64,000 bases of DNA from Ceratodon purpureus (Eukaryota; Streptophyta; Bryopsida; Pseudoditrichales; Ditrichaceae): the NCBI GenBank assembly GCA_014871385.1, contig CM026430.1, positions 6,613,229 to 6,677,228 on the forward strand. Direction: 5' to 3'. The notes beneath the pieces are model-generated. The model made no database searches. It was not told the DNA's origin and was given only the letters and a program-made list of their open reading frames with translations. Below, in pieces: positions 37,201 to 62,300 of the stretch (its first letter is position 1; every line of letters starts with the position of its first letter). Made by a program: the position numbers and the translations under genes.

Positions 37201-37400
37201 ATATACAAATGAGGTACATTTGTTTTTCAAAATCTAGGAATCAGGCCTGATTGATTTTGGGAAATCTACTGGGTGGTATAGGACAACCAACCTTACTCTG
37301 ATGTTGCTAGTCTTCAGCAAAATGTAGGGTTTAGCACTCAAGAGAAGGGTGGAACATCGTGCCAGTAATATTCCTTGCGTTAAAAGACCTAACTGGCTAA

Positions 37401-37463: not shown

Positions 37464-39498
37464 AACCAGAGGGGGCGGATCCGGCGTGATTGCTATCATA
37501 TGACTGTAGCTACAAGTGAGGTAGTCGCGGCCTTTTCTGACATGAAGCCTGCCCTTTTGGGACTCATCATCATGTTCAGCCTAACCCATAACAGATCATG
37601 GGAGGCAGTGGTTTAAGAGTGCGTCGTTGGGGGTGCGCGTAGGCCTGCCGCGTGACAGGCTGTCAGCCACGACCAGTACCTCGTAAGGAGCGTAAACGAC
37701 ACATTCATTGTCCTCTGACGATATCATCCGCCTGAAAATACTGACCGGAGGACCAAAAATGGCAGAAATACAGACCGTATAGATATACATCGTCCAAAAT
37801 GTAACACTTCGAATATCATCCAATACTCATCCATTACGATACAATACCATACGATACGAATACAGCGTACAATACGTACGACGTACAGTATAAAGTTTGA
37901 CAAAGAAGGGAGATGGCGCCGGCGCCAGGTGGGAGGTATCGACCTCTGCAAGTGACCAAGTTACAACTTTTGTGTAGTACTGTCGTTTTCTTTTTTTTGC
38001 GGATTATAATAAAGGAATGGTAAGGAAGCCGCGGTGATTATGACCATTTCAATCCTTTTGTGGGATTTCATTTTCTCTATGAAGGATATTTGCAGCTTTT
38101 ACTCTCTGCATCTAAGTGTGATCTTGAGGACACATTGATTAAAATCATCCAAGCATTATTGGTTCATGTGTGTCTGGGTTCTTTCATGTGTGTCCGTGGG
38201 TATACAATTTATTCCTATTTTTAGCGACTAAAGAAGCGGGTGAGTTAGGAGTGTAATAGAGAAAAATGTGGAATTGCTCCGGGATTTTAAAATAGAGGAA
38301 ATCATATTTGGTGCTAGTGATCTGTGTTAGTGAGCTTGCGAATATGTGAGCCAGATTCGTACACTTGCCTCAGTATGATTGGAACGTGATCATTTTGTCA
38401 ATTTCAATTGATAACGGAATAATTATGATTATTGTTTTCGTTAAAATTCTAATCTTCTTATGATATCATTATATCAAGATGTATTCATATCTCATTATCA
38501 AAAAATAATAAAACTGAAGTTGATAATATTGATTAAGAGAACTCTAAACATCACGATACCTTATATCGTCATTGGGAGTCAGCATGGTAAAGTGCACTAA
38601 AATCTCTCCTTCATAGTGTAGAGGAGCAATGATAATCTGCATTATTATGATTCCCAGCCATCGAAAATCTCTTTCACAAGCATAACATTTGGGCCACAAA
38701 TAAAAAAACATTGCACATGTTGCAGTTTCACCACTACACTAAATACTCCATATGCAAATACACCAGACCAATCAATCCGAGCATACCAATCAGGAGCCTC
38801 GGCTGCAAAACTCGGTTAGCAAAATCCAAATGATAATGTCTTTTGATGGAAGTTTGCAAATCGTTGGAGGGCCATGGCGCCGGCGCCAGTTGGGAAGATT
38901 AGACACAAATTTATCTAGGTCAAGATGCAGGAAGACTTCTGCCTCTGTGACACTGACTTTACCCGTTCAATGAAAACATACATTTGCATGAAACTGAAAT
39001 TTCAAAAGTACATTATCCATACTATGCTGCCTTTGGAAACCAAAGAGACTGCATTGTTACATACTAATAACGCAATATATCATACTCAATTACCCAAATG
39101 CCCTAGCGGAGTGTACAGCGACAATGCTAGCACCAACTTCCATGAAATTTGGAGAAACTTTGCATCGACTGAGCTGACTTGGAAGTGAAGACCCCAGAGC
39201 CCCGAGGGTGGCGCCAGCTCCATTTGAAGGTGGATTCAGCTGGTTCACTCGAACTAGCCAATCTACTACATATGTATATTCTATAAGGTCTCCTGGCCTT
39301 GTCAGAATCATGTTAAGTCACAAAAAGCGTGCTCAACTCTATAAAGCGATCATTTACAGAAACCAGATCAAAACACCTCGAAGTTTAACTTGGAGTCACA
39401 AACCACAGGTATCCAACTAAGTTGGTGGGGGCGAACCACAATCCCAAGCGGAAACGCTGCAATATCAGTTTCCGAGCATGAAGAAGATGGCCGAATTT
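37464..39498. other. Left end of the palindrome-bearing region, no gene seen
   Basis: Base composition becomes less AT-rich from about 37,464. Two perfect palindromes (37,915 and 38,876) and a degenerate one (39,210) lie here. Short frames on both strands have no family features. The element's left terminus is probably in or just before this stretch, but I could not see a terminal inverted repeat without the right end. Confidence 0.5.
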
Positions 39499-40128
39499 CT
39501 AGACTTCACAGTGCGTAGGCTGGACCTCTACTTCCTCCCACTCCTGACCCTCAGCGACTAGGTAACGACCAGTACCACGATGAATCCAAGTCCGACCGCT
39601 CTCGTCTAGCTGCCAGAAATGCAAGACCTGCAAATTCAACCGTCCTGTCACATGCCTCGTAATCAGTACTTGTCTCGGCACAAGGCTATCCACTTCGCGG
39701 TTCAGGTACAATACAACCCGGTCAGAAATTGGTCCAATGCTAGATCGCAGAATCAGGATGAAGTGGGGTTCGTACGGAAAGGAATTTACATTGACCCCGT
39801 CTCTGATAGAAGACCAGGAGAAGCATTGCTCGGAAGAAGGATCCAATTGTGGCAAAATCAACTCTAGCAATCTGAACAGTCGACTTGAAGAGAAGGCTCG
39901 AAACCAACCGAGTGTGAGGACCGGTTTGGAGAATATGGACTCCACGTTGGGTTCAAAGTCGGAGTCGCTATTGTCGCTCTCGTCACTAACAATTTGAGCG
40001 GTCCTCCCAATATCGGTCCACACCAAAGCATTACCAGCGATCATCGCATTCACTGCCTGGCATCTTGGAGGTGGACTGCACCTATTACCAACGACAGGGA
40101 CCAAACGAGAATGCTTTCTCTTAACCAT
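39499..40128 (-). CDS. Unrecognised 209-residue protein
   Basis: This is an intact intronless frame. The start is placed at the ATG at 40,128, because the frame upstream of it has only a TTG. The protein has a basic N-terminus (MVKRKHSR), a short acidic serine stretch near residue 50 (SDESDNSDSDFE), and a compact C-terminal half with no motif I recognise. No signal peptide or membrane segment is evident. It lies between palindrome copies, and a degenerate copy sits 280 bp past its stop. It has the codon character of the other genes in this region rather than of the AT-rich half. It could be a single exon of a longer gene, but I saw no strong splice sites. Confidence 0.55.
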   Translation of the reverse strand: MVKRKHSRLVPVVGNRCSPPPRCQAVNAMIAGNALVWTDIGRTAQIVSDESDNSDSDFEPNVESIFSKPVLTLGWFRAFSSSRLFRLLELILPQLDPSSEQCFSWSSIRDGVNVNSFPYEPHFILILRSSIGPISDRVVLYLNREVDSLVPRQVLITRHVTGRLNLQVLHFWQLDESGRTWIHRGTGRYLVAEGQEWEEVEVQPTHCEV

Positions 40129-41611
40129 AGCGGCGCACAATATCGAAAGGGAGCCCTGCTATCAGCAGATACACTGAGGCGAGCGAAGCAGTCACTCAGA
40201 TTTAAAATGCTGCCGAGGGCTGCAATTAGTGTTTGAAAGATAGCATCTAGAGGCCATGTCACAGAGTCTATGTTTGTGAGAAGAAGAGATCGTGGGAAGA
40301 AGTCCATTAATATTGAATTTATTCAAAGTAGTCGCCAGCTGGGTCGGAGTAAATTAAATGAGCCAAACGAAGGGAACTATGTGAAAACGTATCAAGCGCT
40401 GGCACTTCAAATCTTCCTACTTTGATGCCAAAACGCTTTTATTGCTCATAGTGCTCTCACACAAACTGCCATTACTGCCATATCATGGGGGATCACAACG
40501 GAAACACATTAACTGGAAATTTGGCGCATCTTTAGTATCTTTTCGCATTAAGTTCAAAACATCATTTTTGGCGCTTCTGCCCTCGGAAGTTGTACAACTC
40601 CAATTACTGGTCACATCTCTCCCAACAATGCGGGCCGTGCCTTCTGCACTTCAACAGTTCATGTAGTGCTCTTTGATCAGAATTTAGAATCACCACAAAC
40701 CATTTTCGCAATCACCAGGTCGGAATGGCGGGCACCCGGAGGAGAGCAAACAGGGCACCTCTGAAGAGGGCGAGAAGGAGATGGCGGGTGGGAGCTGCTC
40801 TCTTCAGGAGGACTGCAGGCGACAACACGAAGGGTTGTGCTGGTACATGATTTTTAGCATCGTCAATATTTTGGTAGCAGTTGTCATGTTCTAAGGCGCA
40901 AATAGAACTACCCCTCCCATTTTTGTGCTTGTTGTACGTTGATCTCCGCTCTCGTCTTCGGATGCAGAATTAAAATCATGCTCTCGTATTACTTTGCGGT
41001 GCAGAGTGTTTCTGCTTTTGCCATGCGAAGAGTCCCTGTGCATTTGACTATGCCCCTCGAAGAAGTAGCGAAGACAGCGCACGGTTTATTACCTTACAGC
41101 AGGTCTCGTCGGTAGCCATTTTGGATGTTCCGGCATACGTTGTCTCCGAAGATGGAATTCAGCGAGAGGATATCAGTTCTGATCAAGTAGTGGACGTCTT
41201 AAGTAAAGTCTCAAAATTCTGGGCAGATATCGTGAGTGAGGATGAGATGGGTGAGTGATCATTGACACGAGTCTAGTGAGTCTTCTTTCAAGCTTTTCAC
41301 ACTATGTAGCACCGAAGCATAATGCAAAGGTGATGTAAAGCCGATCAGCGCTTGAGTTTAAGCATGCATGTTGGGACAATTGGCACTCTATAGAAAAGCC
41401 TTGTGTGAACACGGAGTTGTGAGGCAGTGAACAAATGAGTTGATGCCGGGCGCAGTCGTGTTATTGCTATCAGGTCAAGGATACAGATAGTGTCATTACT
41501 TATACAGCTGCAAGGCAGAAATTGGCTCTTCTCTCTACGACTCTCAATCACCTCCATAAATAACCTCAGAACAGAACCTGTCATCAGATCAGAGATAGTC
41601 CACGACACTAA
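40129..41611. other. Spacer with small basic or exon-like frames
   Basis: Between the two minus-strand genes there is no long frame. On the plus strand, 40,725-40,850 encodes 41 residues with about a third Arg or Lys (MAGTRRRANRAPLKRARRRW). A second frame at 40,978-41,115 gives 45 residues. An overlapping third frame runs open from about 41,000 to 41,259 and ends in an acidic stretch. They may be exons of one small plus-strand gene, but I could not join them in a consistent phase. Confidence 0.35.
40725..40850 (+). CDS. Small arginine-rich ORF (41 residues)
   Basis: A complete ATG-to-TGA frame is highly basic through its first 30 residues. The composition is that of a DNA- or RNA-binding peptide. 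There is no homologue I recognise, and a frame this short could be chance. Confidence 0.25.
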   Translation: MAGTRRRANRAPLKRARRRWRVGAALFRRTAGDNTKGCAGT

Positions 41612-44600
41612 CTAGCTTATGTTCGCGATTCCATAAGAGGTCCCGCTTATGGACTGTTTCGACTGCGAGGCTATACTGTCGACCAGGCCTAGGTGATGTT
41701 GCAGACTCATCTTCCGGTTGTCCTCATCTGCTATATCCACGTCTGGTTCGACAGAAATTTCTTTCAAGAACACGTGAAAAGGAGCTGCATCCTCCTCCAT
41801 CGCAAGGATGTGTCTTCCACTCAGTTCACAGGCGGACACAGAGGAGCCTGCAATCGCCACCAATGGGTAAGATTCATGCAAACTGCTTTGCAGATTATTT
41901 TGAATTCACTAGGTTTAATTATTTAAGAGCCAGAGTCTGAGAAAACGAACCGACGCCGGCGGTCAAGTCCAGGACCGCGCTTCCACTTTCGGTGCAGATT
42001 TCAATCATAGATTCCATAAACGCCGGTGACTTCTGTTTTGATCCACGAAATGAGTTAACCCCGTCCACTCGCAGAAGGTTGTCGTCGGTCACAACGTTTT
42101 GAAGGACATCAGACTGGTCCGGGTTCCAGTCCATGACTTTACTCGCAATTTTGTTGAAATGAAACGCTTCGTTTTTCATGCTCTTCTTCCGTAGAACCTT
42201 AGCCTTGAACAAGCGTTTCTGAACAATGTGAGAGCACGTAATCAGTGACGTCATTCTTACAATGTAGCATAACTCCACATGGATACAATGTTGAACAACA
42301 TTCTTACCCACGCTGGAGTGAATGGCCTGTGGTTCACGACGTAGAATGTTCGCACACAGTCCCAATCATGGAGCGAACTTATGTCATCGAGCTCCTCTGC
42401 CGGCACAAAGAGAAGCAGAAATCCTGAGTCTGAGAGGACCGCCTCTGCAATGTGAAATATGGCTGCAAAAGTGGACTTCTTCACCATGTTCCACGTTGGA
42501 ACTCCTCCCAATACACCAGGCACCCTGTTATTGTCCGGTGTATCGCAAATGATCAAATCGACGCAGTTCGGGCTAGCTACACCATCATGCTGCCGGAGCT
42601 TGCCACCGTTGATCTGACAATTTCACAAAGGCCATGTTAGAAAAAAAACATTCAGATTATCTTGAGAAACAAGTATCGCGCGATCACGAAAATGATGGTC
42701 CAATGGCGCCGGCTACATGCCAAATTCACGGATGTGGTCGACAAAGAAATGAATATATTCTCTCGGATGTTGCAACAGAGCATCCTCAAATCAAACGCCA
42801 AGAGAAAGCCTCGCAAAATTGACCTGGAGAAGAATCCAAAAAATAAATTGCATCAAACATGAATGAAAGAGGACCACTGAAAAAGCATGTCAGAAAATGT
42901 ATGATTGCTGTTGGCGCCGGCGCCATCTGGACCAAAAACGATTTTCAGTAATGCCACTAAACACATTCTATTTCAGTGAAACTAGGTCGTCTTTCATTCA
43001 TTGTCCTACACCCAGTGTCCTACAATCAGGAAGTTCCGATCAGCAACGAGGGTCAAAGCAATTTCAGACATTCTCGACAATTCTCAAGCAGACCAATCCG
43101 AATAAACCTAATGAAAACAGTGAACTGGAACTGAGAAAAGGATGGACATGGCGCCGGCGCCAACATTATCGTACTATAATATAAATAATCTTTATCATAA
43201 GAAGAAGGTTCTATGGCTTATGCAAGGAAATACCTCAAACAATGCAAGCAAATCCCAGTGACGACAATGCAAGCAAAAACCAGTGACGACCATGCAAGCA
43301 AGTACCCCAAACTCTCCGGTGCAGGACAGCAGGAGAGCAGATAGCAGGATCGTATTCCAGTGCATGTGACGAAAAATTACAATCAGGATGTTCCGACCAG
43401 CAACTAAGGTCAAGGCATTTTCAGACATTCTCGACCATCCTCAAGCCGACGAATTCGAATAAAGCTAATCGAACCAGTGAACTGGAACTGACAAAGAGAT
43501 GGACTTGGCGCCGGCGCCATCACTATCGAACTATGATATAAGAAATTCTTATCATTTGAAGCAGAATTCACGGCTTATGCAGGCAAACTACAATCAATGC
43601 ATGTAAATACCACAAACTCGATGCATTTGTTAACCCTGTTTGATGACGCAAAGCAATTAACAGATCACACGCCCATTGACTTGTGAAATGCTGCTGCGGC
43701 CCACATGAGGAAATCACAAAATGATTTCGCACATGTGAGCTGCCCCTCGAACATGCTGAGATGAAAATTCTAGAGTGCAGTGCATACAGGAAAATGACAA
43801 TCCATGGCACACCGAGGAGCTTGAAATTATAAAGAGAGCCGCAAGTATGCAACCACGAGACCGCGATACAGAAACTGCTAACTAACCATTAGCAAACAAA
43901 GATTGGAAATAACTCACCCGCTTGATGCAATTCAGAAAAGTGATGAACATGGATCGGTCAATGCCCTCGAGGAGCGACTCGAAGGCAATATTTAAGGACA
44001 ACTTAATTGTGTCCGCCACGCCATCGACTGGGAGGGCCATGTATCGAACGAGGGGTATTGCATCCTCGCCACCTTTTTGAATTTTCTTCCCGGACTTCGC
44101 AGGCAGTCGTTTCAGCGGTGCCACCTGACTGTTCAAACCAGCCTCCTCCTCACGTGTCTCCTTGAGAATCCGAGGCCGCAACGTAGGACCCCGACGAACG
44201 CCCTCACCCTCAATCTCCTTGGCAATGGGCTCTCCCTGAGTCTGGCGTAGAAACTGTAAATCATCGTCTTCATTGGGAGTTCCCGATTTTGACATGTCCC
44301 CGAGAACCCCTCTAATGACATCATTCGCGTCTTCGATTTGCGAAATATCTCCCCGTTTTGATGATTCAATGAGGTCCTGCAGCTCAGTAAATAGAATGGG
44401 TCCATAATGCATCAGCAACCCATTGTTAGTGACCGGGACGTAAACATAACTGACTCTACCCTCAAGCGCACCAAGTAGGTCAGACGATGGGGTGAGAGAT
44501 ACCATGTCACGGGCGCCATTTCCATCGCGAACTGAGCTCTCAACCTGCCCCTTGACCATCTGCAGTGTCTCCGATAGAACCGCGGCCTTCTCTTCTAGGG

Positions 44601-47600
44601 ACGCATCCATAGTACCCTGAATGTCTAGTAGCACCTGATCCCGAAGATTCTTGTCCACGGAGTCGATGAAGTCGGTAAATCCTTCACTGTCCTCGATATA
44701 CCACCCTAGGCTCATCAAATGCGGAGGGTCGTAATGATCAATTTGGTACTGGGTGAAGCAACCGTCGGCGGTTAGACGTCGCCAGTCCTGAAAGATAGGG
44801 TAGTTCTTTAAATCCCCGGTTTCGTTCTTTAACAATAGTTGCTCACCGAGCCACCGCACAAACCGCATGACACACCTCTGCACGGCCTTTTCTCCCAAGT
44901 CGTACCTAGGCTGTTCCTCCCATGTCTTGTGGCGAAGTGGTCCTTTCTCCGTTGTGAAGATCTCTGGGAAGAATCTCTCGAAGCCAAATATCATTACATC
45001 GTCAAAGAAGTCCTCCAGCCACTTCGTGGTGTCGGTCTTTAGTCGCAGGAAACCGATTCCTTTGTCCACCTTGCTCTTACCAAGGAGTTGCTCCAAGACC
45101 ACACCAACCCTCGAATGCAACTGCGATACAAAACAAATCATGGTCAGCTCAGAGTCACCAGATTCGAAGGCGTGCAAGCAAACATCGAGATGACTGCATG
45201 CCTGCTGGATGTAATTTCAGAGTCACCAGATTCGAAGCTATGCAAAAGAAAGGAAGTCGACATCGAGGTGACTACATGACTTCTGGATGTATTGCTAATA
45301 ATTCCAACTAAATTTTTAAGTGTTATGTACGAAGCCTTAGTATCCAAGCCCTAGGGTCGTAATCACTGTGGAAGTTTTTTTAGCCTACAAGAGGGTGAAG
45401 ATGTTACCTGCTCCCACCACGCTCTCCGGTTGAGCCACTTCTGGAATGCGGCTCTCGTGAAGTCTAGATCCGGGAAACTGTACTTCGTTTTCTCCTTACT
45501 GCTAGAATTCCATAACCGCAACACTCTTTTGATGTTTACACCTTGGGCACCGACGAGAATATTAAGGTTGTCAACGGTCATCAAGCCAACCTTCTTGTCC
45601 TTGGACCTGGCGCCACTGCGACCGTTAATGACTAGCTCGTCGATGAGGTGCGGGTGATACTTGGGGTTACATAGTCGAAATATTTTTTTCATATAATCCA
45701 TTTTCTCCTTCCGCAGCTTCTGAGCCCCTGCGTGCTTGGCTTCTTCGATGGCCAGAGAGGTCGGATTGCTCACTTTGTTGCGTAGTCGCTTTACTGAGTC
45801 TCGCTCCGCCATGCTGATTTCACGCTGCATTGATATGAAACCAGCATACAAATTGAACTCAAGGTCAGTACATTGAACATCGCTCTTAAAGCTCGAAAGG
45901 GGATTCAGGGACAACTCGAATTCTGAGTAAGAATCAGTAGTCAAGAGGAGCGGAGAAGAGCGACACTTCAAGAATCAGGACAGAATCAGGACAGTGATGA
46001 AGGACAGTCATGGCGCCGGCGCCATTTGCCCGGATATAAGTTGAAGTCGAAGAGAAGGAAATGGCTAGATGGAGAGCTATTAGCTATCGTCATTCCTAGA
46101 GTCGTGTCGAATAATAGATTGCGTGGTGCTAAGTGCTACCTGCTTTGCCCCAATTATACTGATATTCTTGATCATTTCCTCAAACAGTTTCTGGTATGCT
46201 AAAACAACCCATTTAATAAGTAAATCATATGTTTAACGAGTTCGAGGATGTCTAAATGACGACTATCGAGTCTTGACATCGCTCTTACCCTCTCAGCCCA
46301 TCTACTGATGCATGATCTAGTCGAAATGTCTGAGTTTATAATTAAGGATGTGTCCAGTAATCTGGCCTTGCAAGAATTTCAATGGCATGATCATCAGACG
46401 ATTTCCCAAAACAATGACTTGCTAACAAATTAGGCTCTGCATAAGTGTACAATTAGTTGCCTCATCGAAGGTCCTCTACGTACAACTGAATGAATTCAGT
46501 CATAGCTAAGCCATCCTATTATCATAACACAGCATTACGATGGATGCGAAAGACGTTGCCGCTGTACTCACTCACAGGTATTTGAGACGTAACATGAGAG
46601 TCGAACAGAAACTCCCGCCATCATAACGAACACTGCATGGTTTTCTCATCGCAAGCCTTAAAACAATACAGCGATCCATGGACAGATTCAGCAAGGAACT
46701 GAAGACCACATCTCTTACCTTGAAGTATACTTCGCTTACAGCGTCACACGTCATCTTATACCAACGCCCCTTGCAAACATCCTTGATGCGCTCAATCTCA
46801 CTGTCTGTAAAATAGACCTTGTACTCAGTCGGATCTCGGCTGGCTATTTGCATCACTTCGAAAATAGTGTGCGCCAACTGTTTCTTCACCGTTGAGTTCA
46901 CTGTGCCACTGATTTCATACAACTGAATGTTAATTTCGTGAAGCAAGATTCTCTGCTACTTATCATCATACCATGTCTGACTCATCCCAGCTACATTCCG
47001 CATGAACGCATGCCGATGCGGCCAGCAACATGATCATGGCAAGTCATCCCAATACCCCAAAGTGTAAGTATATCTGATTAAGAGGACTCGGCCAGATGAG
47101 GTGCCATGCATATCCAGGATGGACATCGTGCCATCGAAGCCTAACTCCAACTGATGTTCAACAGCGCCAGTACTTCCAATCGGAATATCTGATAATTTCG
47201 AAATTAAATTACGAGTAACAAGGAAAGCAAATCAGTACGACTTTGGTGGACCATAGGTTAGGGGCATACTCGTTGATGTCACGCATGAAGTTAGAGATCC
47301 AGCCACGGTCGTCTTCGGAGTCATTGAGAACGAAACAGTTCACTAGGATCGGTTCTCCATTGCATTCTCTGATATGGCGCATCCATGCCAAGGCCCTATG
47401 ATTCCCATCCCATACGTTGACATACTGTCCAATAATTTTCTCATATATCAACCTGTTTTCGGGGTCAGACTCGCATTTGTCTCGGAGGTCCTGGTCGAAC
47501 TTTGCAGACACGGCTGCCCACCTCTCATGGTCCTCAAGCTCCTTAACAACAAAGGAACCGGGACTACCGCAGCTTGTAACCCAGAAATTGGCACCCCAGT

Positions 47601-50600: not shown

Positions 50601-51275
50601 GGTTGGTGCCATACAGGCCTACAGAAGTCCGAAGAGTACAAAAAACAATCCAAACTCTAAACCTGTACTAAACGAACGACTTAGGGTTCAGAGACATGGA
50701 TCGAAATTAGAGAGTGTGATGGCGCCGGCGTCACCTCGCATGGAGAGGACTATGTCGACAGTATACAAACAATTCCGGCTCAGCTTATCCCCATCGGGTC
50801 AACAAGTCATGATCAGATGCACCATCTCTATTACAACCCGAGCGGTTGCTTGATTGAGCATCGAATTCTCAGGATAAGGCATAGACAACGAGGAGAATCG
50901 CACGGCCTTGACAAAGAAAAACTGACTCAAAATTCCGCGGCGCATGGAGCCGGCGATAGATCTTGTAATCAAACTTGGGAATCTAATCGCGGAGAAATGG
51001 AGTGCAAACCCAAGAATCGACAAAGCAATCTGACCTAAATCCGAACAACCCAACAAGCGCATCCAAGAAAATCTGAGTCGAAGTACCTGGCCATCAGTCT
51101 TCTGCTTCTTGCGTCCTCGACCTCCACCATCCTTGTCATCGTGCGACCTCCGACGCCGTCTCCTCTCCATCGCATCAGTCATGTTGATGGCTTGAGGCGC
51201 CTCTCCAGCAAGGAAGCTATCCATAAGTCCTCCAACCCTTGACCTCGACCTCGACAAACTGGTACTGCTCGGCAT
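41612..51275 (-). CDS. ParB-like domain plus beta-class DNA methyltransferase, nine exons
   Basis: Proposed exons (minus): 51275-51087, 47895-47239, 46922-46719, 46190-46140, 45824-45408, 45120-43918, 42613-42308, 42218-41951 and 41847-41612. All junctions are GT/AG; all introns are phase 0 except the last (phase 1). The predicted protein is 1,176 residues. Residues 1-63 are Ser/Arg-rich with KKQK/RRRRRR nuclear signals. Residues about 128-260 form a ParB/sulfiredoxin-like domain with VWDGNHR (D226-R230). Residues 368-907 are unrecognised. Residues 908-1176 look like an N6/N4 amino-methyltransferase in beta order: a motif IV-like DTPD (931-934, where the family has D/N/S-P-P-Y/F/W), then a KSPAFMESMI helix and motif I DLTAGVGS (from 1093), then the acidic AMEED (SAM ribose) segment. 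Bacterial and phage ParB-methylase fusions exist; a eukaryotic transposon-borne version is, as far as I know, undescribed. Activity is uncertain because motif IV is atypical. Confidence 0.75.
42614..43917. repeat. Intron 6 with two palindrome-bearing repeat units
   Basis: This 1.3-kb intron carries palindromes at 42705 (degenerate), 42913, 43150 and 43507. The last two sit in consecutive copies of the same unit found in intron 1 (ACATTCTCGAC landmarks at about 43,067 and 43,422, 355 bp apart). Confidence 0.7.
48520..50480. repeat. Tandem array of about 330-bp units in intron 1
   Basis: About six units lie head to tail inside the 3.2-kb first intron of the ParB-methyltransferase gene. The landmark (A)CATTCTCGA occurs at about 48,552, 48,880, 49,216, 49,540, 49,833 and 50,200. 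Each unit places the palindrome about 85 bases later (48634, 48965, 49297, 49624, 50284), except the unit near 49,833, where it has decayed. Units also share runs of the word ATGCAAGCAAATACC and a CGACCAGCAACTAAGGTC segment. Copies differ by roughly 10-20% by eye. Confidence 0.8.
50588..50732. repeat. Palindromes between the array and exon 1
   Basis: A perfect copy at 50588-50599 is set in the context GAGAAGGGAGAT...CAGGTTGG, close to the context of the leftmost copy at 37915. A copy with one change (GGCGCCGGCGTC) is at 50721-50732. Both are in intron 1, outside the tandem units. Confidence 0.8.
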
Positions 51276-51390
51276 TGTGAACCCCCACCTAGTAAACCGG
51301 ATCTGGGGATGGAGTAACACTGTCGCTATTCCGAGAGATGGAGTGCCTTGCAGCTGACAAGTCGTGAATAACCATGATTGACCTTTGTCC

Positions 51391-51400
51391 TATATATAGG
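51391..51400 (-). promoter_or_regulatory. TATA-like box of the ParB-methyltransferase gene
   Basis: TATATATAGG lies 116 bases upstream of the minus-strand start codon (reverse complement CCTATATATA). It would place transcription start near 51,360. The 451-bp gap to the transposase start is a shared divergent promoter region and, notably, has no palindrome copy. Confidence 0.45.
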
Positions 51401-51668
51401 ACACCAGTAAGGGCCGTTGGCACCACAGTAATTGCAAAACGTAATAGGCAACGGAAGCAACTACGCGTAGATCACAACGTTAGAGACTATTCTGAGGCAC
51501 AACATGTACTTAATCATTTCAGAGCACAAAATCGGCAATTTTAATTGAACCGGTTAAAAACTGCCGGCACTTTTCTACTCGACCGTTTCAATCGCGCACT
51601 TTTAACACAACGATTGGAATTTGATACATGAGTCCGTTGCGAATTCCTAACGAATGTATTAACTCGTG

Positions 51669-51675
51669 TATAAGA
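51669..51675 (+). promoter_or_regulatory. TATA-like box of the transposase gene
   Basis: TATAAGA lies 52 bases upstream of the ATG at 51,727, in an otherwise GC-moderate stretch. The spacing allows a short 5' leader. Confidence 0.4.
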
Positions 51676-51726
51676 GCGGCGACATGGTGTCTGCAAATCT
51701 CATTCCACTGAACCAATCATAGTAGT

Positions 51727-54700: not shown

Positions 54701-55986
54701 CGGTCGGAATGACACCAACAATAAGCGATATCAGGCAAACGCAACGTCAAAATCTGGCCACTGCGGTATCAAACCCGGGCAATCAGAGGCTGCAATCGCA
54801 GGCTGATCCCTACCCTGCCCCACAATATAATCAGCAAAGCACAATGTGGAGGGCTTCCTGCCTTCCGCCTTCTACTCAGCAATATCTGGCAAATCAAATA
54901 TTGTCATCACCCACCCATGAGTCATACACGGGGCAGAATGGAATCCCAATCCCTGTTCCTAGAGCAAACATCTCGGGGCAGAGTTATGGGCTCGGAAATC
55001 ATTCCTTTTATGCACCCTATAACTCAACGCATCAGGCAATTGTTCGTCCCTGTCTTTCAAACATACCACAATATCAGCACCAGGAAACTCCAGTCGCACA
55101 GCCTGTATTGCAGTACGGGCACCCGGTCCTGGAAAGAGAAGTAGACCACAATGAATGGGCTATACGTAGATCCTTACCGGGGGAGGATCCCAAATGTTCC
55201 GCTTACGTTGATCGAAACGGAAGATGGGAGTCCTGTTGTCGGCCGCTCAAAAGTAACTCGAATCTCAGTGTCGCAGCTCCATCTTTCTATGGCACATGTG
55301 AAATTCGTTTCACAAAGAGCTTCCAAATTTATTGGTTCTGTCCAAGATCAGCAGCAGGGTGTGTAGGAAGCGACCATGTTCTCCACATGAGAGGAGGGAA
55401 ACCGCCAAAGCTTCCAAGGGTCTGGCCAGTTGATATGGGTACGAAGTTGACTATGTCAGAGGCCAATGAGCTGGGTAGTGCCGGATTCCTCTTGGTAGAT
55501 GATGCTTCTATAGAGGAGCAGCTCAAACTCCAACAAATTGAGTTTGCAAGTAACGTCTCACCAATGAATCCGCTGAGAAGACCTCCGCGCAGGGCCGGCA
55601 AGAAAGTGAATAGAAGATCATTGACTGACAGTGGGGAGTCCAGAAGGGATAACGGATTACGGATGGTCGCACAGGTTCGGGTACTGAGTCAATGCAAGGA
55701 GGATTCTGTTTACACGTTCAATTTGCACACTGTGTCGACGACTACGAACAAATCTGTAAATTACGTAATCACCATCTGTGAAACGCCGTCATGTACTTGT
55801 CCCTTCTTCGTCAACAGCGTGTCTGACCACAAGCCTGGACATTTTTACATGACTTGTAAGCATATGTATCACATTTACAACCGGGTGCTTGGATTACCGC
55901 TTACTGATGAGCGGCCACATCAGGCAACATTGAGTCGAGCAGAAGTGGAAGATATAATGAAGACCTGGAGACCTACTCCAACGTGA
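51727..55986 (+). CDS. Giant MULE-type transposase with SWIM finger (1,419 residues)
   Basis: The frame is intronless and intact. Residues 1-300 are mostly low-complexity and acidic. A Cys/His cluster spans about 348-427 (ECRNKDCPH, later HAGTHSH), like the WRKY/FLYWCH-type DNA-binding fingers of MULE proteins. The DDE-like core has D582 (FVMFDH), D648 (FMADAAPANYNA), the inserted C-x2-H of MULE folds (CYFH, C689 and H692) and E793 (NLCEPVHSS). A Ser/Pro/Gln-rich linker follows (about 830-1130). A SWIM zinc finger closes the protein: C1356-x-C1358 and C1377-x-H1379. Typical MULE proteins are about 700-900 residues, so this one is unusually long. A perfect palindrome at 54621-54632 lies inside the gene and is read as Met-Ala-Pro-Ala-Pro-Phe (965-970). 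It is transcribed divergently from the ParB-methyltransferase gene. The catalytic residues are my alignment by eye. Confidence 0.85.
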   Translation: MQFTMEAEAAIPRVLKLALAGGTARFDFAGYGDSVEIPESDLVESFGLRIGTLHIKQLDIAGALCGRFWPEEKNGEKIFTLPFTVDGVYIVHGDPQMGLPPREAEKQPERNDNEEPLDCILLEDTSCDSPYSEGGFSCGSPEFEGGSGLRNADAPGKRNLCLEDYPIEPIGTMDLRSTVLHHAPSSPDVTTPPQSPTSSNRLHAPPCGQSPVESLQVESEGELHAHSYVSPSSPLRPRAMVAEDEDSPFPGAFSIYPNLMDLPGKGCTGELASLPLVDFPHTKCRYLPREYDGNQIYEVPPVTDDDYITTDLSFDGHPWIKSNSYNSARLKEAGLRVRKSFCAGAFECRNKDCPHVDLHGGLNTLYWDGRCHTRPTPGNTPIDSDWRCSFCHYTPYSVQQCSAVLWIISHESEFLTRAVVHAGTHSHLSPAGRSRGAYVNMTDTIHKFLDDQPWLLAAPGWVGFRCAHRNFFDLIMQSTTVEEREMLNEEDLVRILEDAPPFHDKTRVKYVVTKFRSDQERCILALKRYSRYCYIQDSHFPGQSDEGIKFVFKMSTVGVGSGVDLVRRMTSGDLKDSFVMFDHVKRIHQWTTMAAHVYDHNLQRLLTIAVCEMKLENTENQIKFWKLLNSAIQKRGMPKPKFKGFMADAAPANYNAVRAVYGLVEGLDGNPDDVDNDVENTEHPILRTCYFHFVQSIRDHTNKWVQEKFRVHHVEMCKRWALAPTNLEFRQIAEELEEWWQSSGAVQKSNVKFMLAWKTWWMARRTLFAYHHVNELDLDLESEALIPSTNLCEPVHSSMWATSACGYKVKMDLYTVCAEDMTRSLLQQQFCLAALKGQLKGSGPSKADLLLRSAARSHRPEKVAMAVKAAVKGTEFHSRGVGLEGELDRTQSVRIGARIGRRTSARSHRPDKDSRTIRRPLKDQPQCTPPPRKRNASHVNVHEVRDQSQNKFAPSANRFCYTSGMAPAPFGTAPTTAGGPWQHESPVQGGPSVGMTPTISDIRQTQRQNLATAVSNPGNQRLQSQADPYPAPQYNQQSTMWRASCLPPSTQQYLANQILSSPTHESYTGQNGIPIPVPRANISGQSYGLGNHSFYAPYNSTHQAIVRPCLSNIPQYQHQETPVAQPVLQYGHPVLEREVDHNEWAIRRSLPGEDPKCSAYVDRNGRWESCCRPLKSNSNLSVAAPSFYGTCEIRFTKSFQIYWFCPRSAAGCVGSDHVLHMRGGKPPKLPRVWPVDMGTKLTMSEANELGSAGFLLVDDASIEEQLKLQQIEFASNVSPMNPLRRPPRRAGKKVNRRSLTDSGESRRDNGLRMVAQVRVLSQCKEDSVYTFNLHTVSTTTNKSVNYVITICETPSCTCPFFVNSVSDHKPGHFYMTCKHMYHIYNRVLGLPLTDERPHQATLSRAEVEDIMKTWRPTPT

Positions 55987-56287
55987 ATAGCCGCCTAAGT
56001 AAGCCCGCATTCATCCCAGATGAAAGCGCTGGCTGTCGACTTTAGTTCTGGTCGCAGGCATGGTCAGAGCTGGAAAGTCTAGAAGTCAGATAGAACAAAC
56101 AGCGAAGTTATGTTGCAAAATCTTAGATTTCAGGCCCCAACACTGAGCGTTTGAACTACATTATATTTCTTGATTATGGCGGCTGAAACTTTCTGTCTTT
56201 CTTCCTAAATCCCGAGCCTCAGTAAAGTAACCTGGATTTCGTAATCAGTTTCAAATTGTTAAAATAACGGCAAAAATCCGCTCAAAT

Positions 56288-56299
56288 GGCGCTGGCGCC
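56288..56299. promoter_or_regulatory. Palindrome variant upstream of the first RING gene
   Basis: GGCGCTGGCGCC has one C-to-T change at a CpG relative to the consensus. It lies about 90 bp before the TATA-like box at 56,390, a position suited to a promoter element. Confidence 0.5.
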
Positions 56300-56389
56300 A
56301 TTCGAACGAGGCTCCGTAAGCGAGGCCACTGTTGAATGAAAAACTATGCTCCGTAGGATGAATGTTAAATCGCGTTCTCAATGCACCCT

Positions 56390-56397
56390 ATATATTC
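56390..56397 (+). promoter_or_regulatory. TATA-like box of the first RING gene
   Basis: TATATATT lies 100 bases before the ATG at 56,497. This is the main reason for preferring that ATG to the in-frame ATG at 56,362, which would fall upstream of the expected transcript start. Confidence 0.45.
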
Positions 56398-56496
56398 TTG
56401 AGCAACTCTTCTCTTACAAGTTATCAACGCTTCAAGCAAGTAGAATTTAGATCTTTTCTTCTTAGCCAGATTAGCAACATTGCTCCCCGCCTTATC

Positions 56497-57580
56497 ATGT
56501 CGTCGATTGCTTTGTCCCCATTTGGTACGCACTACTCTAGGATTACGTCCATCTGCTACCACAAACATTTGATGGCAACAGACTCAAAGAGAAAGCTAGA
56601 TATCTCAGAGGAGAAATTGAGGATATTAAAAGAGGAATTTGCAGTACAGGAGCCCGTGATCTCTGAGGTAGGTAGTTGTTTCAACGCACTTGCTGAGGCG
56701 GAGGCAATTCTCCGTGATACCCACTTACGTTTCAAGCAGTGCTACGAGTCTGTAAAGGATGCTGTTGTGCAGGCTGCCATGATTGATAGTGCTACAGCGG
56801 ACCCAGCAGTCCGCTTCGAGACAAGGGCGAACGTGATTAGTCTGCGAGAGAAGATGAGACAGTTGAGGGAGGACCGAGCTCGGGCAGAGTCGACACTCCG
56901 CAACATGGATGGGTATGGTTCTTACCGTTCCGTTATTGTCTTACTACTCGAGGCAGAGCGTAAAACTGATATCGACCGCGAGGAGTGGCAGGAGATGGAA
57001 GCTGATCAGTTCCTTACCATTGAAATTCTGCGTCGGTATAGTGAACACACGCAGTTAACACTTTCGTCCGGAGTTCTCCACCCGAGTACCATTGCTGAAG
57101 GGGACACTCGAAGATGCGAGATGTGCGGAACTGGATTTCCGGCAGACGAAGTGATTACTACACCGTGCGGCCACTACTACCATTTGTTTTGTCTTGCAAT
57201 TCGGGTAGCAGTGGATCCGGAGTGCAGTAAGGCTGCATGCAGCCTCCCTTTCCCGATCCCGTGGATGCAAACCTTTGGGTTCCCATCCATTATCCTGTCG
57301 GAAAACAGCACGGAGGCAATACTGAGTTCTTCCTCCTCAGAGGAAGAAATTGCTGCCGGTAAGGTCTTTACTTGAGGTCGACGCAATTTGAATTCTATTT
57401 GATTCTATGTTGGGAATCCTAAAGACATTGATGCTGATAATTTGTGTATTTTGATCCTTTTTTGAAGCCGGCGACAGTGGAGATATTGGTGCAAATGAGC
57501 TGGGGACCCAAGAGGTAGAAAGTCCTGCAGAAGGAAATCCCTCACCAACACCGCTCCAAAAACGTCCTAGGGTCCATTAG
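56497..57580 (+). CDS. Coiled-coil RING-H2 protein (copy 1), two exons
   Basis: Exon 1 is 56497-57358 and exon 2 is 57468-57580, joined by a 109-bp GT/AG phase-1 intron, giving 324 residues. A long charged coiled coil comes first. The RING-H2-like finger follows: C-x2-C (CEMC), then C-G-H-x2-H-x2-C (CGHYYHLFC), then C-x4-C. The tail is acidic and serine-rich, and exon 2 ends LQKRPRVH, probably a nuclear signal. The likely role is an E3 ubiquitin ligase or adaptor; which protein it targets is unknown. The last Cys pair spacing (x4 rather than x2) departs from the standard RING. It pairs with the gene at 60,222, which has the same intron position and the same 113-nt last exon, so the two arose by duplication. 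An upstream in-frame ATG at 56,362 would add 45 residues. Confidence 0.75.
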
Positions 57581-58196
57581 ACCCACTGTTTAGATAGAAT
57601 GTCACTCTCAAACATCAGATAAGAAGCCGTAGTTTTGCCGACAATGGTTATAGAATGCAGCACTATTATTGAACACTACCTAGAATGTTCTTCAGTAACT
57701 ATCTGCAACATCAGATAGGTTGCGGCAGTTTTTTCAGAACTATTGTAGAAATATACGGCTTTCAGAAATCACATTGTAACCGATCAAGTAATATAACACT
57801 TCATTTTGTCAACACTAGTATAGCTCTTTCAATGAATTGGGGACCTAGATGAAGTTCACATTATGTCGGAAGTCTTAGACCATTCTTAATTGTGAGGCAA
57901 AAATCACATCATCTTGCTCACTCCCGTGGGATGGCGCCGGCGCCGACTGATACTGAACTTGATCAAATTATTTCCATCTGAACGATTGGCGCCGGCGTCA
58001 AATGAGACTACTCAAATACTAAGGTAACCGTTGTTGCATTGAAGTCTAAAGGAAAGGGCATAAACGAAACGGTGCACTTAAAACGGTACAGTTGCCGTAC
58101 TGCATCACCCTAAGCATCCGACATTTCGAATTTGCGAATTACAAGACCTTTTACGAAGAAAATTGAAACTTCAATAATTCTATAGATCGAGAGACA
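57581..58196. promoter_or_regulatory. Spacer with two palindromes before the S1-like gene
   Basis: There is no reading frame of note. A perfect palindrome at 57933-57944 and a one-change copy (GGCGCCGGCGTC) at 57988-57999 lie 264 and 209 bp before the S1-like start. A TATA-like box was not obvious. Confidence 0.45.
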
Positions 58197-59201
58197 ATGT
58201 TCACGATCATTCCGTCAATTCATATATTTTGTACTTTGATCATGAGTATGGTGATACACAATATCGTAATGGCCTACCGACCGGATCCCCCAAGTCCGAT
58301 AGAAATAGCAAATGTGACACCGAATAACGTTACAATTTACTGTATTGAGAAGGATTCTATAGATGGGGAGGTCCGGGAACAAAACATCATAAACAGTAAA
58401 ATATTAAAGAATTCTGTTGTGCAGGTTGGCATTGCAAATCGACATGACTATGACTTGGCAGACTTTGGAGAAAGTCAGTACTGTGAGTTTGAGATGTTGT
58501 ATAGAGGATACAATTGTGCAATCTTATGGAGTACTGACAAACTCTGTGTTTGGGAAAATCCTGAGGTTGTGCTGAGCCGCAACCGATATTCGGAGCCACA
58601 CCCCCCAAATTGTCCCATATGTGACGAGAAAGCGAAGCAAGGCCATCAGCAGTGCCGATGGAGAGTTGAAAAAGATGGAGTCTATGTCTCTCAGTATGAC
58701 ATACATCGAGGACGCCATCGATTTGTAAAAAAAGCTGATTGGGATGAAGAATTCCTTTCCGAGGAGCTAGTCAATGAATACAACATATCGATTCGAAATA
58801 ATCTGGAGCATGAGCTGATATTATCAGGGCAAACAGCAGAGGGCACAAAAGGATTGCTCACCCTGGCCCCTCGGAAAACTGCTAAATTTTCTTTAGTTCG
58901 TGGAACAGACGATGAATTTCTATACACTTGGATCTGTCATTTCAAAGTTGCCAAAACCGGTGCCTACCGCAACGGGGTGGTTCTCTGGATTCCACCTCCA
59001 TACGACAGTCTCTCGCCTATTCGATGCATTGATTGTTCTTGGAAAGCCGACTCTGATGGTATCTGGCTAGATTCTAGTGGCTGTGGTCGAGTTGGACCAA
59101 GCTGGCAAAAAATGCATGATTGGCTGTATCGTGAGCGCGACTCATTAGAAACGTACAGTAAACCAAGCAAAAGACCGAGACGTGAACACCAAGAACTATG
59201 A
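58197..59201 (+). CDS. Double S1-like (plant self-incompatibility homologue) protein
   Basis: This is an intact intronless frame of 334 residues. A hydrophobic N-terminus (1-26, ending VMA) looks like a signal peptide. Two tandem modules resemble the plant S1/SPH family (PF05938). The first (about 34-165) has ANVTPNNVTIYC, a CEFEMLYRGYNCAILW strand block and the family's closing C-x-W...DG-hydrophobic motif, CRWRVEKDGVYV. The second (about 193-292) repeats the pattern with ISIRNNLEHELIL, TWICHFK and CSWKADSDGIWL. S1 proteins are small, secreted, usually single-domain and plant-specific, so a double-domain form inside a mobile element suggests capture of a host gene. The C-terminus is odd for a secreted protein: KPSKRPRREHQEL looks like a nuclear signal. 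The fold call is by eye and rests mainly on the two closing motifs. Confidence 0.65.
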   Translation: MFTIIPSIHIFCTLIMSMVIHNIVMAYRPDPPSPIEIANVTPNNVTIYCIEKDSIDGEVREQNIINSKILKNSVVQVGIANRHDYDLADFGESQYCEFEMLYRGYNCAILWSTDKLCVWENPEVVLSRNRYSEPHPPNCPICDEKAKQGHQQCRWRVEKDGVYVSQYDIHRGRHRFVKKADWDEEFLSEELVNEYNISIRNNLEHELILSGQTAEGTKGLLTLAPRKTAKFSLVRGTDDEFLYTWICHFKVAKTGAYRNGVVLWIPPPYDSLSPIRCIDCSWKADSDGIWLDSSGCGRVGPSWQKMHDWLYRERDSLETYSKPSKRPRREHQEL

Positions 59202-60221
59202 TACATTGAGGCCTTTCTGGGACAATTTAGTCAACAAGAATACAGCATGGGCTTCAGTGTGAGTAGATGATGGCGCTGGCGCCATTTCAGCACAAGAATT
59301 TGCTTCCCAGCGATTCTTTCAAAAAAATATCGAAACATCCGGATGTTAGGAAATCTCATCCGGCTGTTAGGAAATCACATTTAACTGTTACGATAATTGA
59401 CTTCCATCAAAGTTGAGCGAATGACAAGTCACCGTAATCGAATGAAGAAAATATTACTACGCAATATTGGTGCTATTTACATTCACACTGGGCTCGTTAA
59501 TTTAGGAATACTAGCAAGCTGACGCCATAATCTTACAAAATCCCGGTGTTGCAGACTTCACCAACAAGGATCTCATAATCCTGATTCACCATACTGATGG
59601 TACATATCTCCATCCCCAGTATTCCAGGAACATCTTCCTCTGGAGAATCAACAACCCCATAATTGATTAAAACTTCTCCTTGATTTGGCGCCGGCGCCAT
59701 CTCTTTCTCGAGAAGGTTGCCCTGACAAATTCCGTTGGAGGCATTAAAATAAAGAAATGCGATGTTCATTTAATATTGGTCCGTTGTACTATATATGAAC
59801 ACCGATGATTATACAATCTCCGGTTGATCTGTTATAAAATCTGAATTCTAGGAAATATAAATCATCAGTACTATGGAAGAATATTAATGACAGCGAATTG
59901 CAGTTCGATATTGCGAAGGGTTTGCTGGGTTGTTAGATTACGACCTAGGGGTCGAATGGCGCCGGCGCCAATTGAACTCGGGGAGGATCCCTAGGTTGCG
60001 ACCGTTTACATCAATCCATCAGTTCAAATTCGTTCACGTAGGATATCGCCTGATATGTATATGAGACTCTCCGGGCACCTCCCTCATTCCAAATTCGAAC
60101 AACTGAGAGGGTGCCAAGATTATGAGATTCGTTAGACGCAGGCTTTTGAACCTTTGTCACCCGAGATTGTACCATTGGTTATGTGAGAAATAGTCCCTTC
60201 TGAATCTACGGCTTTTGAAAG
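59202..60221. other. Spacer with three palindromes and one small ORF
   Basis: Palindromes are at 59272-59283 (one change, 71 bp past the S1-like stop), 59687-59698 and 59958-59969 (264 bp before the second RING gene). The only frame worth noting is the minus-strand ORF at 59,533-59,769. Confidence 0.5.
59533..59769 (-). CDS. Unrecognised 78-residue ORF containing a palindrome
   Basis: A complete ATG-to-stop frame. The palindrome at 59687-59698 is read here as Met-Ala-Pro-Ala-Pro, as in the transposase. The second half is acidic (SPEEDVPG). No family is recognised, and at this length it could be chance. Confidence 0.3.
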   Translation of the reverse strand: MNIAFLYFNASNGICQGNLLEKEMAPAPNQGEVLINYGVVDSPEEDVPGILGMEICTISMVNQDYEILVGEVCNTGIL

Positions 60222-61260
60222 ATGCCTCCATCTCGAATAGCGTCAATTCTAGCGCATAAGGCAGACTTAGTTAGCGATGCAGGACGGCGTGTTGAGATTG
60301 CCCGAATCCGAGAGCGCAATGTAAGTGAGCAATTCGAGATAGACTTGCCGGAGCTGCCGGAGGAAGGGGCACAGCGCAATGCCGTCCTTGAAGCGGATGG
60401 GGTATTGCGAGATGTTCATTCTCGATATTTGCTTTGTGTAGCATCAGTGAAGGATGCCTTAACTCAGGCGCAGAGGATAGATGCGATGACAAGCGACGCG
60501 ATTGTGAGGATGGAAACTAGAGCGAATCTGATGGAGTTAAGAGAGAAGCAGTTAGAACTTCATCACGACCGTCTGCGTGCAGAGCGCGATTTACGCGCTC
60601 TACCTGGATTCCAGGACTCATCCAGTGTCTTAGCAAAGCTTCTGGATGCTCGAAGGGAGTTGGAGAAACTCAAGGAAGAGTACCACGAACTTCAAGCCGA
60701 CCGTCGCATGGCTGCCGACACTCTACGCAACTATGGTGAACACACTCAGCTCAGCTTGTCCAAGCGAATCCATCTTCCGAGAATTCCGTTACCAGATGAC
60801 GGAAGACGATGCGAGATGTGCAACACAGGATTCCCGGCAGGGGAAGTGGAGATTTCACCGTGTGGTCACTTTTATCACATTTTCTGCTTGGCAATTCGAG
60901 TCGCGATGTATCCGGATTGTTGCGGTCGTGGGTGCACTGTGCCGTTTCCTCCATGCTGGCTTCAGAATTACGGATTTCCTTCACAGACAGTCGTTTGAAT
61001 CAGACACGGGCAGCTCGTCTAGCGACAACGACAGTACTAACGGTGCGGTTGCACCGTCTACCTCATCCTCCTTTTAGTGCATTTTGATCATTACCCATAA
61101 TGATGAATCACTAACTATGAAGGGTCTTGCCCGTGATATTCTTACAGACTTGGAAGACATAAACGAGGTGCCCAGTGTACAAGCTGATCAAGTAGTCCCC
61201 AACCCCGGCACTTGTCGATCCCCGCCGACGCCGCTCTTTAAACGGCCAAGAGTTCTGTAG
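60222..61260 (+). pseudogene. Coiled-coil RING-H2 protein (copy 2), frameshifted near its end
   Basis: This is a paralogue of the gene at 56,497. The open frame 60222-60998 (258 residues) contains the coiled coil and the complete RING-H2 (CEMC, CGHFYHIFC, C-x4-C) and then stops just after GFPSQTVV. The lost tail is present one frame over: an acidic serine stretch (FESDTGSSSSDND) leads to a donor at 61,043. A 105-bp intron ends at 61,147, and a 113-nt last exon (61148-61260) ends LFKRPRVL, matching copy 1. A +1 shift between about 60,981 and 60,996 therefore truncates the protein after the RING, removing the acidic tail and nuclear-type C-terminus. It may still yield a short functional RING protein, or the shift may be a sequencing error. 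Confidence 0.75.
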
Positions 61261-61399
61261 GCTTGAATTAATGTATACTCGGATTAGTTGCAATCGCTTT
61301 CTGTATGTTGCAAGCGTTTTCTTAGGCACACTTCAGCACATATAGATTCTTACCGACTTGGAAGCAGTCACAGTGACGAATTAGAAGCCGTAATAATGT

Positions 61400-62300
61400 T
61401 CTGTTTTAGTAATTTAATGGTCCCTTTCCATATACATGTCTGCCATGTATGAGCTCTACAATCATATCTGTATAAACATTTTTAATAAGGCCAAGTGGAT
61501 AGCACTGTGTCAGGTAGCACAGCGGAAGCCTTAGCTCATTACATTTCTTACTAATGGACGATAATATAATAGGAATTATGTGTTTTGCCTTGCATATAAC
61601 CACATGTTCACAGTGCGACTTGCAGCCGAGAGTATGTGCTCGTTCCTTGCATTGATGTGACTAATATCTGCTTATATTGTTTGTGGTACATTTCGAATAG
61701 GGCGTGAAAAGAAAAGTAAATGAAATAATTTGGCAGTGTTGGCGCCGGCGCCATGGCCATTCATTTCTCAGTTCCATTTCAATGTTCTGATAATCAGGAA
61801 TGTTTGAGAATGTTCTCTACTTGCTCGTCGGATTGTTTTCCTTGCTGATCAAAGTTTCGTCACATGCACTTCATGTATCCAGTTAACTACTCACTCGGCC
61901 TTGCACCCGAAAGTTTGATGTTTTTCCTTGCATTCTCGTGACTGGTATTTGCTTCCTGCTGCTAAAAAGAAAACTGTTAATGTCATAATTCGACAGTGTT
62001 GGCGCCGGCGCCATGTCCATCCTTATCTCATTAACATTTCAAAATATCGAAAAGCTGAATAAGGATAGGCCTGCATGTGAAACTTCGTAAATAAGCGAGA
62101 AGTGTTAGTCTGAAGATGGGCGTCGGATCATTCTGATCTTTGAGTTGATTTTCGCCACTTGAAATTCACTACTACCTCGGTCCTGCAGCGGAGGGTATTC
62201 ATTTGTATGCTTTAAATATCGCGACTGGCTTTTCAATTTGCCTGATTCATGTAAGGGTGACAGTCGCTGGTTCACTCCTCAAGGCGCCGGCGCCAAATGA
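61400..62300. repeat. Inverted copies of the palindrome-bearing repeat
   Basis: Read on the minus strand, the sequence around the palindromes at 61741 and 62001 matches the 330-bp unit of intron 1: palindrome, then CATGTCCATC, a TCAGTTCCA(T/G)TTCA block and a GAGAATGTT block. Spacings are 260 and 282 bp to the next palindromes (62001 and 62283). A decayed unit without a palindrome is visible near 61,430-61,680. Orientation is opposite to the arrays in introns 1 and 6. Confidence 0.65.

Follow-up and report, generated by a model that had tools for sequence, protein, structure and literature searches.

A spaced inverted repeat recurs throughout giant Mutator-like transposons of the moss Ceratodon purpureus and is a predicted recognition site

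In the VANDAL elements of Arabidopsis, the protein VANC21 binds the motif YAGTATTAY and causes a loss of methylation over whole elements; the targets of VANC6 carry a different motif, and both VANC motifs form tandem repeats (PMC5735166, in part). FHY3/FAR1, which are related to Mutator-like transposases, bind the GC-rich promoter site CACGCGC (PMC6000157, in part), and fusions of a ParB-CTPase fold with an N6_N4 methyltransferase have been reported from phages and mobile elements, sulfiredoxin being the most common eukaryotic representative of this fold (PMC12704722, in part). Here we consider 64,000 nucleotides of the moss Ceratodon purpureus (the window; contig CM026430.1 of assembly GCA_014871385.1, G000:C10:6613229-6677228, in a genome of 362,488,568 bases and 151 contigs), which include most of a 37,052-bp Mutator-like transposon with copies of the inverted repeat TGGCGC-N2-GCGCCA throughout. 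Titles and abstract beginnings disclosed no literature on such an element or site, subscription papers lying mostly outside the coverage. A 2019 review of giant transposons covers the Pack-MULEs of Jiang et al. (PMC6431247, in part), and the main text of a 2019 survey of Mutator-like elements (MULEs; PMC6446971) contains none of the terms moss, Physcomitr- and bryophyt-.

The window element, called W, extends from 37602 to 74653, 10.65 kb of it beyond the window; it was read to the window's end plus flanks, 64001-74000 not being among the sequence read. Four clusters of sites were fetched with their flanks as elements A, B, C and D; B and C were seen end to end, A without its left end and D without its right end. 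Perfect 9-bp target-site duplications enclose both W (AGATCATGG) and the 47,117-bp element B (ATGTTGCAA), and both have short, imperfect terminal inverted repeats at their two ends.

37593..37601, no strand: left copy of the 9-bp target-site duplication AGATCATGG; the right copy follows 74653, beyond the window
37602..37650, plus strand: left terminal inverted repeat region, short and imperfect; element start, resembling the left ends of B, C and D
37602..64000, no strand: window part of the 37,052-bp Mutator-like element, which runs on to 74653

The duplications and the terminal inverted repeats are shared with Mutator-like elements, as the MULE-type catalytic and SWIM-like motifs of the transposase, recognized by eye, may also be. 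Unlike Mutator-like elements, Pack-MULEs included, the moss elements are 37-47 kb long and carry about ten genes. As in VANDAL, a short word is repeated in the noncoding DNA of a Mutator-like transposon, partly within element-specific repeats (331 bp in W, 1046 bp in D), and by analogy its proposed reader would also be encoded by the element. The VANC motifs are YAGTATTAY and AGTTGTCC/AC, whereas the moss word is an inverted repeat of 14 bp; neither VANC motif was among the top-ranked 10-mers shared by the five elements, no separate count of either being made. In further contrast with VANDAL, the complete moss elements measure 37 and 47 kb, the candidate binder is ParB/methyltransferase-like, and the likeness rests on sequence rather than on methylation.

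The window contains 18 exact copies of the 12-base word GGCGCCGGCGCC, the first at 37915 and the last at 62283-62294, with none before 37915; 100 dinucleotide shuffles of the window yielded 0 copies. A T precedes the word in 17 of the 18 copies and an A follows it in 17 of 18. Seven near copies accompany them, with one mismatch (50721, 56288, 57988, 59272), two (39210, 42705) or three (49297). The original prediction had described precisely this set, 18 exact and seven near copies with usual T and A flanks and none in the preceding 37.9 kb; all were recovered, and the pattern was, if anything, understated. The copies were also said to be confined to 24.4 kb; they are indeed clustered, but that region is too short, the element being 37602-74653. 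The sites (no strand assigned) and the repeats that bear some of them are as follows.

37915..37926: exact site, intergenic, near the left element end
38876..38887: exact site, intergenic, downstream of the 39.5-kb gene
39210..39221: near site, two mismatches
42705..42716: near site, two mismatches, in a predicted intron
42913..42924: exact site, in the predicted intron preceding the methyltransferase exons
43150..43161: exact site, same predicted intron as 42913, in a 331-bp repeat copy
43507..43518: exact site, same predicted intron as 42913, in a 331-bp repeat copy
46012..46023: exact site, in a predicted intron
48634..48645: exact site, 331-bp repeat array, predicted intron 1
48965..48976: exact site, 331-bp repeat array
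49297..49308: degenerate site, three mismatches, in one 331-bp repeat copy
49624..49635: exact site, 331-bp repeat array
50284..50295: exact site, 331-bp repeat array
50588..50599: exact site, predicted intron 1
50721..50732: near site, one mismatch
54621..54632: exact site, transposase coding linker, reads MAPAP
56288..56299: TG-centre site, between the transposase and a RING-like gene; this interval also contains a site in relatives
57933..57944: exact site, 264 bp before the ATG of the S1-like gene
57988..57999: near site, one mismatch
59272..59283: TG-centre site, after the S1-like gene
59687..59698: exact site, intergenic
59958..59969: exact site, 264 bp before the ATG of the second RING-like gene
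61741..61752: exact site, in an inverted repeat-family copy
62001..62012: exact site, in an inverted repeat-family copy
62283..62294: exact site, intergenic
43022..43551, plus strand: two site-bearing repeat copies of about 331 bp
48506..50464, plus strand: site-bearing array of about 331-bp repeats, between a divergent ParB-like exon and the transposase

One diverged family of about 331-bp repeats, with direct (43150, 43507, 48634, 48965, 49624, 50284) and inverted copies (61741, 62001), holds 8 of the 18 exact words. Clustering by flanks placed the 18 copies in 9 groups, a number that rises to 10 when 42913, whose link is close to the threshold, is separated; 37915 and 50588 have short flanks in common, and outside this pair and the repeat family the flanks are unrelated. 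The claim that the surroundings are unrelated therefore holds across 9-10 flank groups, but not among the eight repeat-family copies. These contexts, together with the presence of the word in six elements, rule out an origin in a single repeat family. Within the 331-bp repeats, the 12-mer and the windows shifted from it by one base rank as the three most conserved 12-column windows; copies agree pairwise at 94% on average over the 12-mer versus 68% over the flanks, and 8 of 9 copies have the perfect word, so that the word itself is the best-kept stretch, as had been proposed. By a gene map whose exon-intron boundaries were derived from open frames, splice signals and relatives, the 20 GGCGCN2GCGCC sites of the window would be divided between the introns of one gene (9), coding sequence (1) and intergenic DNA (10), in agreement with the predicted occurrence in introns, spacers and one coding sequence.

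The unit itself is not the rigid 12-base word first described. It is TGGCGC-N2-GCGCCA, an inverted repeat whose halves are always two bases apart; a rigid 12-mer is ruled out by a variable centre (CA, TG, GG, AG, CT) between constant half-sites at constant spacing. GGCGC and GCGCC half-sites at spacers of 0, 1 and 3-8 were found 0 times in the five elements (over slightly longer stretches, with the same counts). Folded by symmetry, 52 single-mismatch 14-mers had their change in the centre (35), the outer T (7), the C at position 3 (6), the second G (3) or the first G (1), and the inner G and C, which adjoin the centre, were never altered. Of the 35 centre changes, 22 were C to T, as expected of CpG decay, versus only 3 C to T changes in the outer CpGs, which are equally decay-prone and twice as many; the half-sites are thus constrained and the centre much less so. 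When W or B sites were aligned to D or C, 11 of the 13 (out of 46) that could be aligned kept all ten half-site bases in flanks 70% identical (chance expectation about 4%), a proportion biased upward, since the 13/46 were reached by local alignment, which the site itself helps. No site fell inside an alignment in the other element pairs tried. The site is kept by selection, with half-sites and spacing fixed.

Genome-wide, GGCGCCGGCGCC occurs 938 times as against 24 for its reversed word; the counts are of these two words, TGGCGCNNGCGCCA not being among them. The 50 of the 938 places that were listed are all on contig C1. Four clusters account for 46 of them, and 42 of the 49 gaps do not exceed 20 kb, where 2,000 random placements averaged 1.7 such gaps and had at most 7. 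All four clusters, A to D, encode the transposase and a ParB-like exon, in keeping with the association that the original prediction had put forward for checking. Two of the four isolated C1 copies are in sequence related to A and B, and two are without assignment. The five elements (208,733 bases) contain 113 GGCGC-N2-GCGCC sites, W having 20 in its window part, A 19, B 25, C 27 and D 22; one further W site lies at 74165, beyond the window. Shuffled elements (200 shuffles each) had mean counts of 0-0.01 and never more than 1. In 81,406 bases of element flanks there were 0 sites, and 0 14-mers within two mismatches of TGGCGCCGGCGCCA. Neither an equal density in unrelated DNA nor confinement to one repeat unit, both named beforehand as grounds for abandoning the idea, was found: the word sits in 9-10 window contexts and recurs in diverged elements. 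A ranking of ungapped 10-mers by their smallest count over the five elements gave pieces of the site at all 12 top ranks. A sixth, more distant element, of which 10 kb were fetched, is sparser than the other five, with one exact 14-mer and two at one mismatch.

The sites also recur at the same places relative to the genes. Wherever the 420-amino-acid exon and the methyltransferase exons were both seen (4 of 4 elements), sites lie between them; in 4/4 they occupy the stretch from the left end to the 39.5-kb gene, and in 6/6 the interval between the transposase and the RING-like gene (as the TG-centre variant in W and D); the transposase linker carries sites in 5/6, the sixth element having none there. 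As far as examined, the site is therefore confined to the elements, spread over their length, and found again in corresponding positions relative to the genes of diverged families. Measured inward from the left ends, the outermost sites are at 313 bp in W, 602 in B, 647 in C and 297 in D, and from the right ends at 452 bp in A, 439 in B and 1,027 in C; with no site within the terminal repeats and the outermost 297-1,027 bp inside the ends, a terminal transposase site is ruled out.

On this evidence the repeat is a strongly selected, putative recognition site of a family of giant Mutator-like transposons, one that would serve the whole element, as originally predicted; the confinement, the unrelated contexts and the recurrence in diverged elements all support this. 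We lean towards TGGCGC-N2-GCGCCA being the binding site of a dimeric, most likely element-encoded protein that keeps the element unsilenced. Such a protein would grip the sites throughout the element and protect or co-regulate it as a whole, so that tens of kilobases would stay unsilenced and expressible, as with VANC in VANDAL. The leading candidate is a putative nuclear protein that would join a ParB-type domain to a methyltransferase-like domain, the transposase coming second. The genes concerned, and the others of the element, are:

51727..55986, plus strand: transposase-like gene, 1419 amino acids, with a MULE-type catalytic region, a SWIM-like C-terminus and a Cys/His-rich N-terminal region by eye
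51090..51274, minus strand: putative first exon of the ParB/methyltransferase-like gene, with a basic nuclear-localisation-like stretch
47254..47913, minus strand: exon with a ParB/sulfiredoxin-type fold
45405..45845, minus strand: conserved exon, assigned to the same putative ParB/methyltransferase-like gene
43954..45213, minus strand: 420-amino-acid exon, assigned to the same putative gene; found in B, C and D
41650..42616, minus strand: methyltransferase-like exons, PF01555 above cut-off when spliced, DTPD replacing DPPY
56572..57375, plus strand: RING-like coiled-coil gene, paralogue 1
60222..60998, plus strand: RING-like coiled-coil gene, paralogue 2
58197..59201, plus strand: S1-like gene (PF05938)
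39502..40140, minus strand: element gene (39.5-kb gene), found in B, C and D
62986..63699, minus strand: element gene (63-kb gene), found in B and D

The basic first exon is present in W, B, C and D. Twelve protein-database relatives of the ParB-like exon were found, the one named being a hypothetical protein of Ceratodon purpureus (59% identity). A single-sequence structure model of this exon reached a predicted local distance difference test score of 38, and no Pfam helix-turn-helix match was found beside the ParB fold in the exons scanned. The W transposase had no Pfam match and a weak one, at residues 688-798, to an NCBIfam IS256 transposase (E 0.0033); by eye, the catalytic stretch is present in 5 of 5 elements, the SWIM pattern in 4/5 and the strict N-terminal zinc pattern in 2/5. 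A protein database search with the transposase, viral-contig scans with the transposase and the methyltransferase, and PDB sequence searches gave no match.

Several observations weigh against the reading of a protective, element-encoded binder, beside the alignment bias mentioned above. The ParB fold match is weak, with no match at E 0.001 or better. All six of six elements carry both the transposase and the ParB-like gene, so that co-occurrence cannot separate the candidate binders. VANC motifs differ between families, whereas the moss site is constant across families about 52-78% identical in their transposases. The CpG observed/expected ratio of noncoding DNA, 0.84-0.88 in 5 of 5 elements versus 0.43-0.54 in the three larger flanks, speaks for the reading, but the contrast is not universal: coding ratios are alike (0.77 in the transposase, 0.74 in a flanking L1-like region), and the ratio is 0.71 in the last 10 kb of the left flank and 0.87 in one 4-kb flank block of B. 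Element C, with both ends seen about 52.8 kb apart, has no matching target-site duplication; compared with B it has an inverted segment, and a part of C recurs at a distance of about 45.9 kb, so C is rearranged. Finally, the nine transposase-internal sites of the five elements all read MAPAP in one frame. These sites may have a role in the peptide; as the main cause of the site MAPAP is ruled out, 1 of the 20 window sites being in predicted coding sequence, and a peptide role fails to explain the site overall because the majority are noncoding.

We considered the possibility that the repeat is instead a promoter or enhancer site, bound by the transposase through its Cys/His-rich N-terminus or by a host factor, that coordinates transcription of the element's genes. 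Sites do lie upstream of several genes and in putative introns, and FHY3/FAR1 offer a precedent of Mutator-transposase-related proteins with a short GC-rich site, though CACGCGC is found at host genes and is not a 2-base-spaced inverted repeat (PMC6000157, in part). Co-regulation would not lead one to expect sites downstream of genes and within coding sequence, nor 19-27 sites per element, nor terminal repeats without any, and a host factor would require the site to be kept in every family. We consider this explanation possible, yet unlikely.

Another explanation takes the ParB-type exon at its word: the protein would load at the sites as a sliding clamp and compact or bridge the 37-47 kb, joining the ends or holding the element through replication, in a ParB/parS-like manner. 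Foldseek ranks 1-27 for the exon were all ParB, Noc, PadC or sulfiredoxin; 9 of the 12 relatives have a Box II-like DGNHR, one of them as EGNHR; and palindromic sites spread along a very long element would fit such loading. The phage ParB-CTPase-fold/N6_N4 methyltransferase fusions likewise have both domains, as apparently here, in one protein of a mobile element (PMC12704722, in part); the moss gene differs in being eukaryotic, apparently intron-containing and DTPD-bearing. Loading for end-joining or replication strikes us as distinctly improbable.

The site might also be what the methyltransferase-like domain itself modifies, a cytosine mark of self versus non-self. The exons, as tentatively spliced, match PF01555 (N6_N4 methyltransferase) at 28.4 bits versus a cut-off of 26.7, and the palindromic core has three CpGs and no adenine. 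The catalytic motif IV of N6_N4 methyltransferases is (D/N/S)PP(Y/F/W). In W, B, C and D (4 of the 4 elements where the exon was read) and in an environmental relative, P0005, it is DTPD, which makes catalysis doubtful and also speaks against the leading candidate's second domain being active; moreover, a tolerant 2-base centre between long half-sites would better suit a dimer-binding site. Modification of the site by this domain is very improbable. With its relatives P0001-P0005, the stretch 41950-42616 (minus strand) forms a eukaryotic methyltransferase-like family with DTPD wherever the motif IV part is present, the environmental relatives being 55-97% identical.

Chance, or a by-product of repeat amplification and base composition, might be suggested by the 8 of 18 window copies in one repeat family and by the word-bearing 1046-bp tandem array of D, but has next to nothing in its favour given the 9-10 unrelated window contexts, the six diverged elements, the half-site constraint and the shuffles. 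The D array (C1:27688852-27694000, cut off by the end of the fetched stretch) contains four sites; its 1,046-bp units, 4.9 in number, are 99% alike.

The diverged families in which the site recurs differ in sequence and gene content. Identity of the transposase to that of W, measured by pieces, is 62 and 57% in A, 61 and 56% in B, 61 and 57% in C and 78% in D (48% for C as one gapped alignment), and 52-54% in the sixth element; for the ParB-like exon it is 60% in A, 67% in B, 53-69% in C (pieces) and 86% in D. RING-like genes are present in A, B, C and D; B, C and D also have the 39.5-kb gene. B and D, but not C, have the 63-kb gene, and the S1-like gene, which encodes a PF05938 protein of a plant family, is in D only (90% identical), not having been found in A, B or C. 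At another locus (L001), an S1-like stretch lies near a lone site.

A transposase search of the genome gave 52 matches, with at least 33 copies among the matches listed (33 of 3,853 candidates scored, element A not among them). One copy, on contig C9, is 100% identical to that of W, and its left element end is set in flanking DNA different from that of W, so the family has been mobile in recent time; the right end of the C9 copy was looked for at the expected position without success. Outside contig C6, 17 of the 25 copies listed are free of stops. On C6 (>103 Mb), 0 of 8 are, all eight carrying stops compared with 8 of 25 elsewhere; judged from size only, C6 may be a sex chromosome. Nine listed copies at about 54% identity, on six contigs, have one in-frame TAG in eight cases and two in one; this family may have spread recently, or the TAG may be an in-frame intron or a stop. 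A 2.16-kb stretch (L028 2069-4226; C10:6699297-6701454) with terminal repeats like those of B and no copy of the word is probably a non-autonomous relative. To the left of W, the window has an inverted repeat of about 1.1 kb, 85% identical (11176-12414 versus 29164-30322 and 33841-33989), and, just beside the element at 35515-37201, a direct repeat, without the word, whose copies of about 0.66 kb are spaced at about 1,030 bp.

Repeated marks that protect an element have been documented for the Arabidopsis VANDAL elements (PMC5735166, in part), and the moss elements would provide a second, apparently unrelated case of repeated sequence-specific marks protecting a whole transposon. Should the ParB-type protein prove to bind these sites, this would place a working bacterial DNA-clamp fold inside a plant nucleus. 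It is conceivable, though we think it rather unlikely, that this nuclear transposon has a parS-like system of its own, in which the ParB/methyltransferase-like protein would load at about twenty sites, spread, and keep 37-47 kb compact and unsilenced; this would explain how a Mutator-like element can reach such a length. A fixed site, diverged families and few candidate binders make it possible to test how selfish DNA may label itself and escape silencing, and how a MULE may grow to 47 kb.

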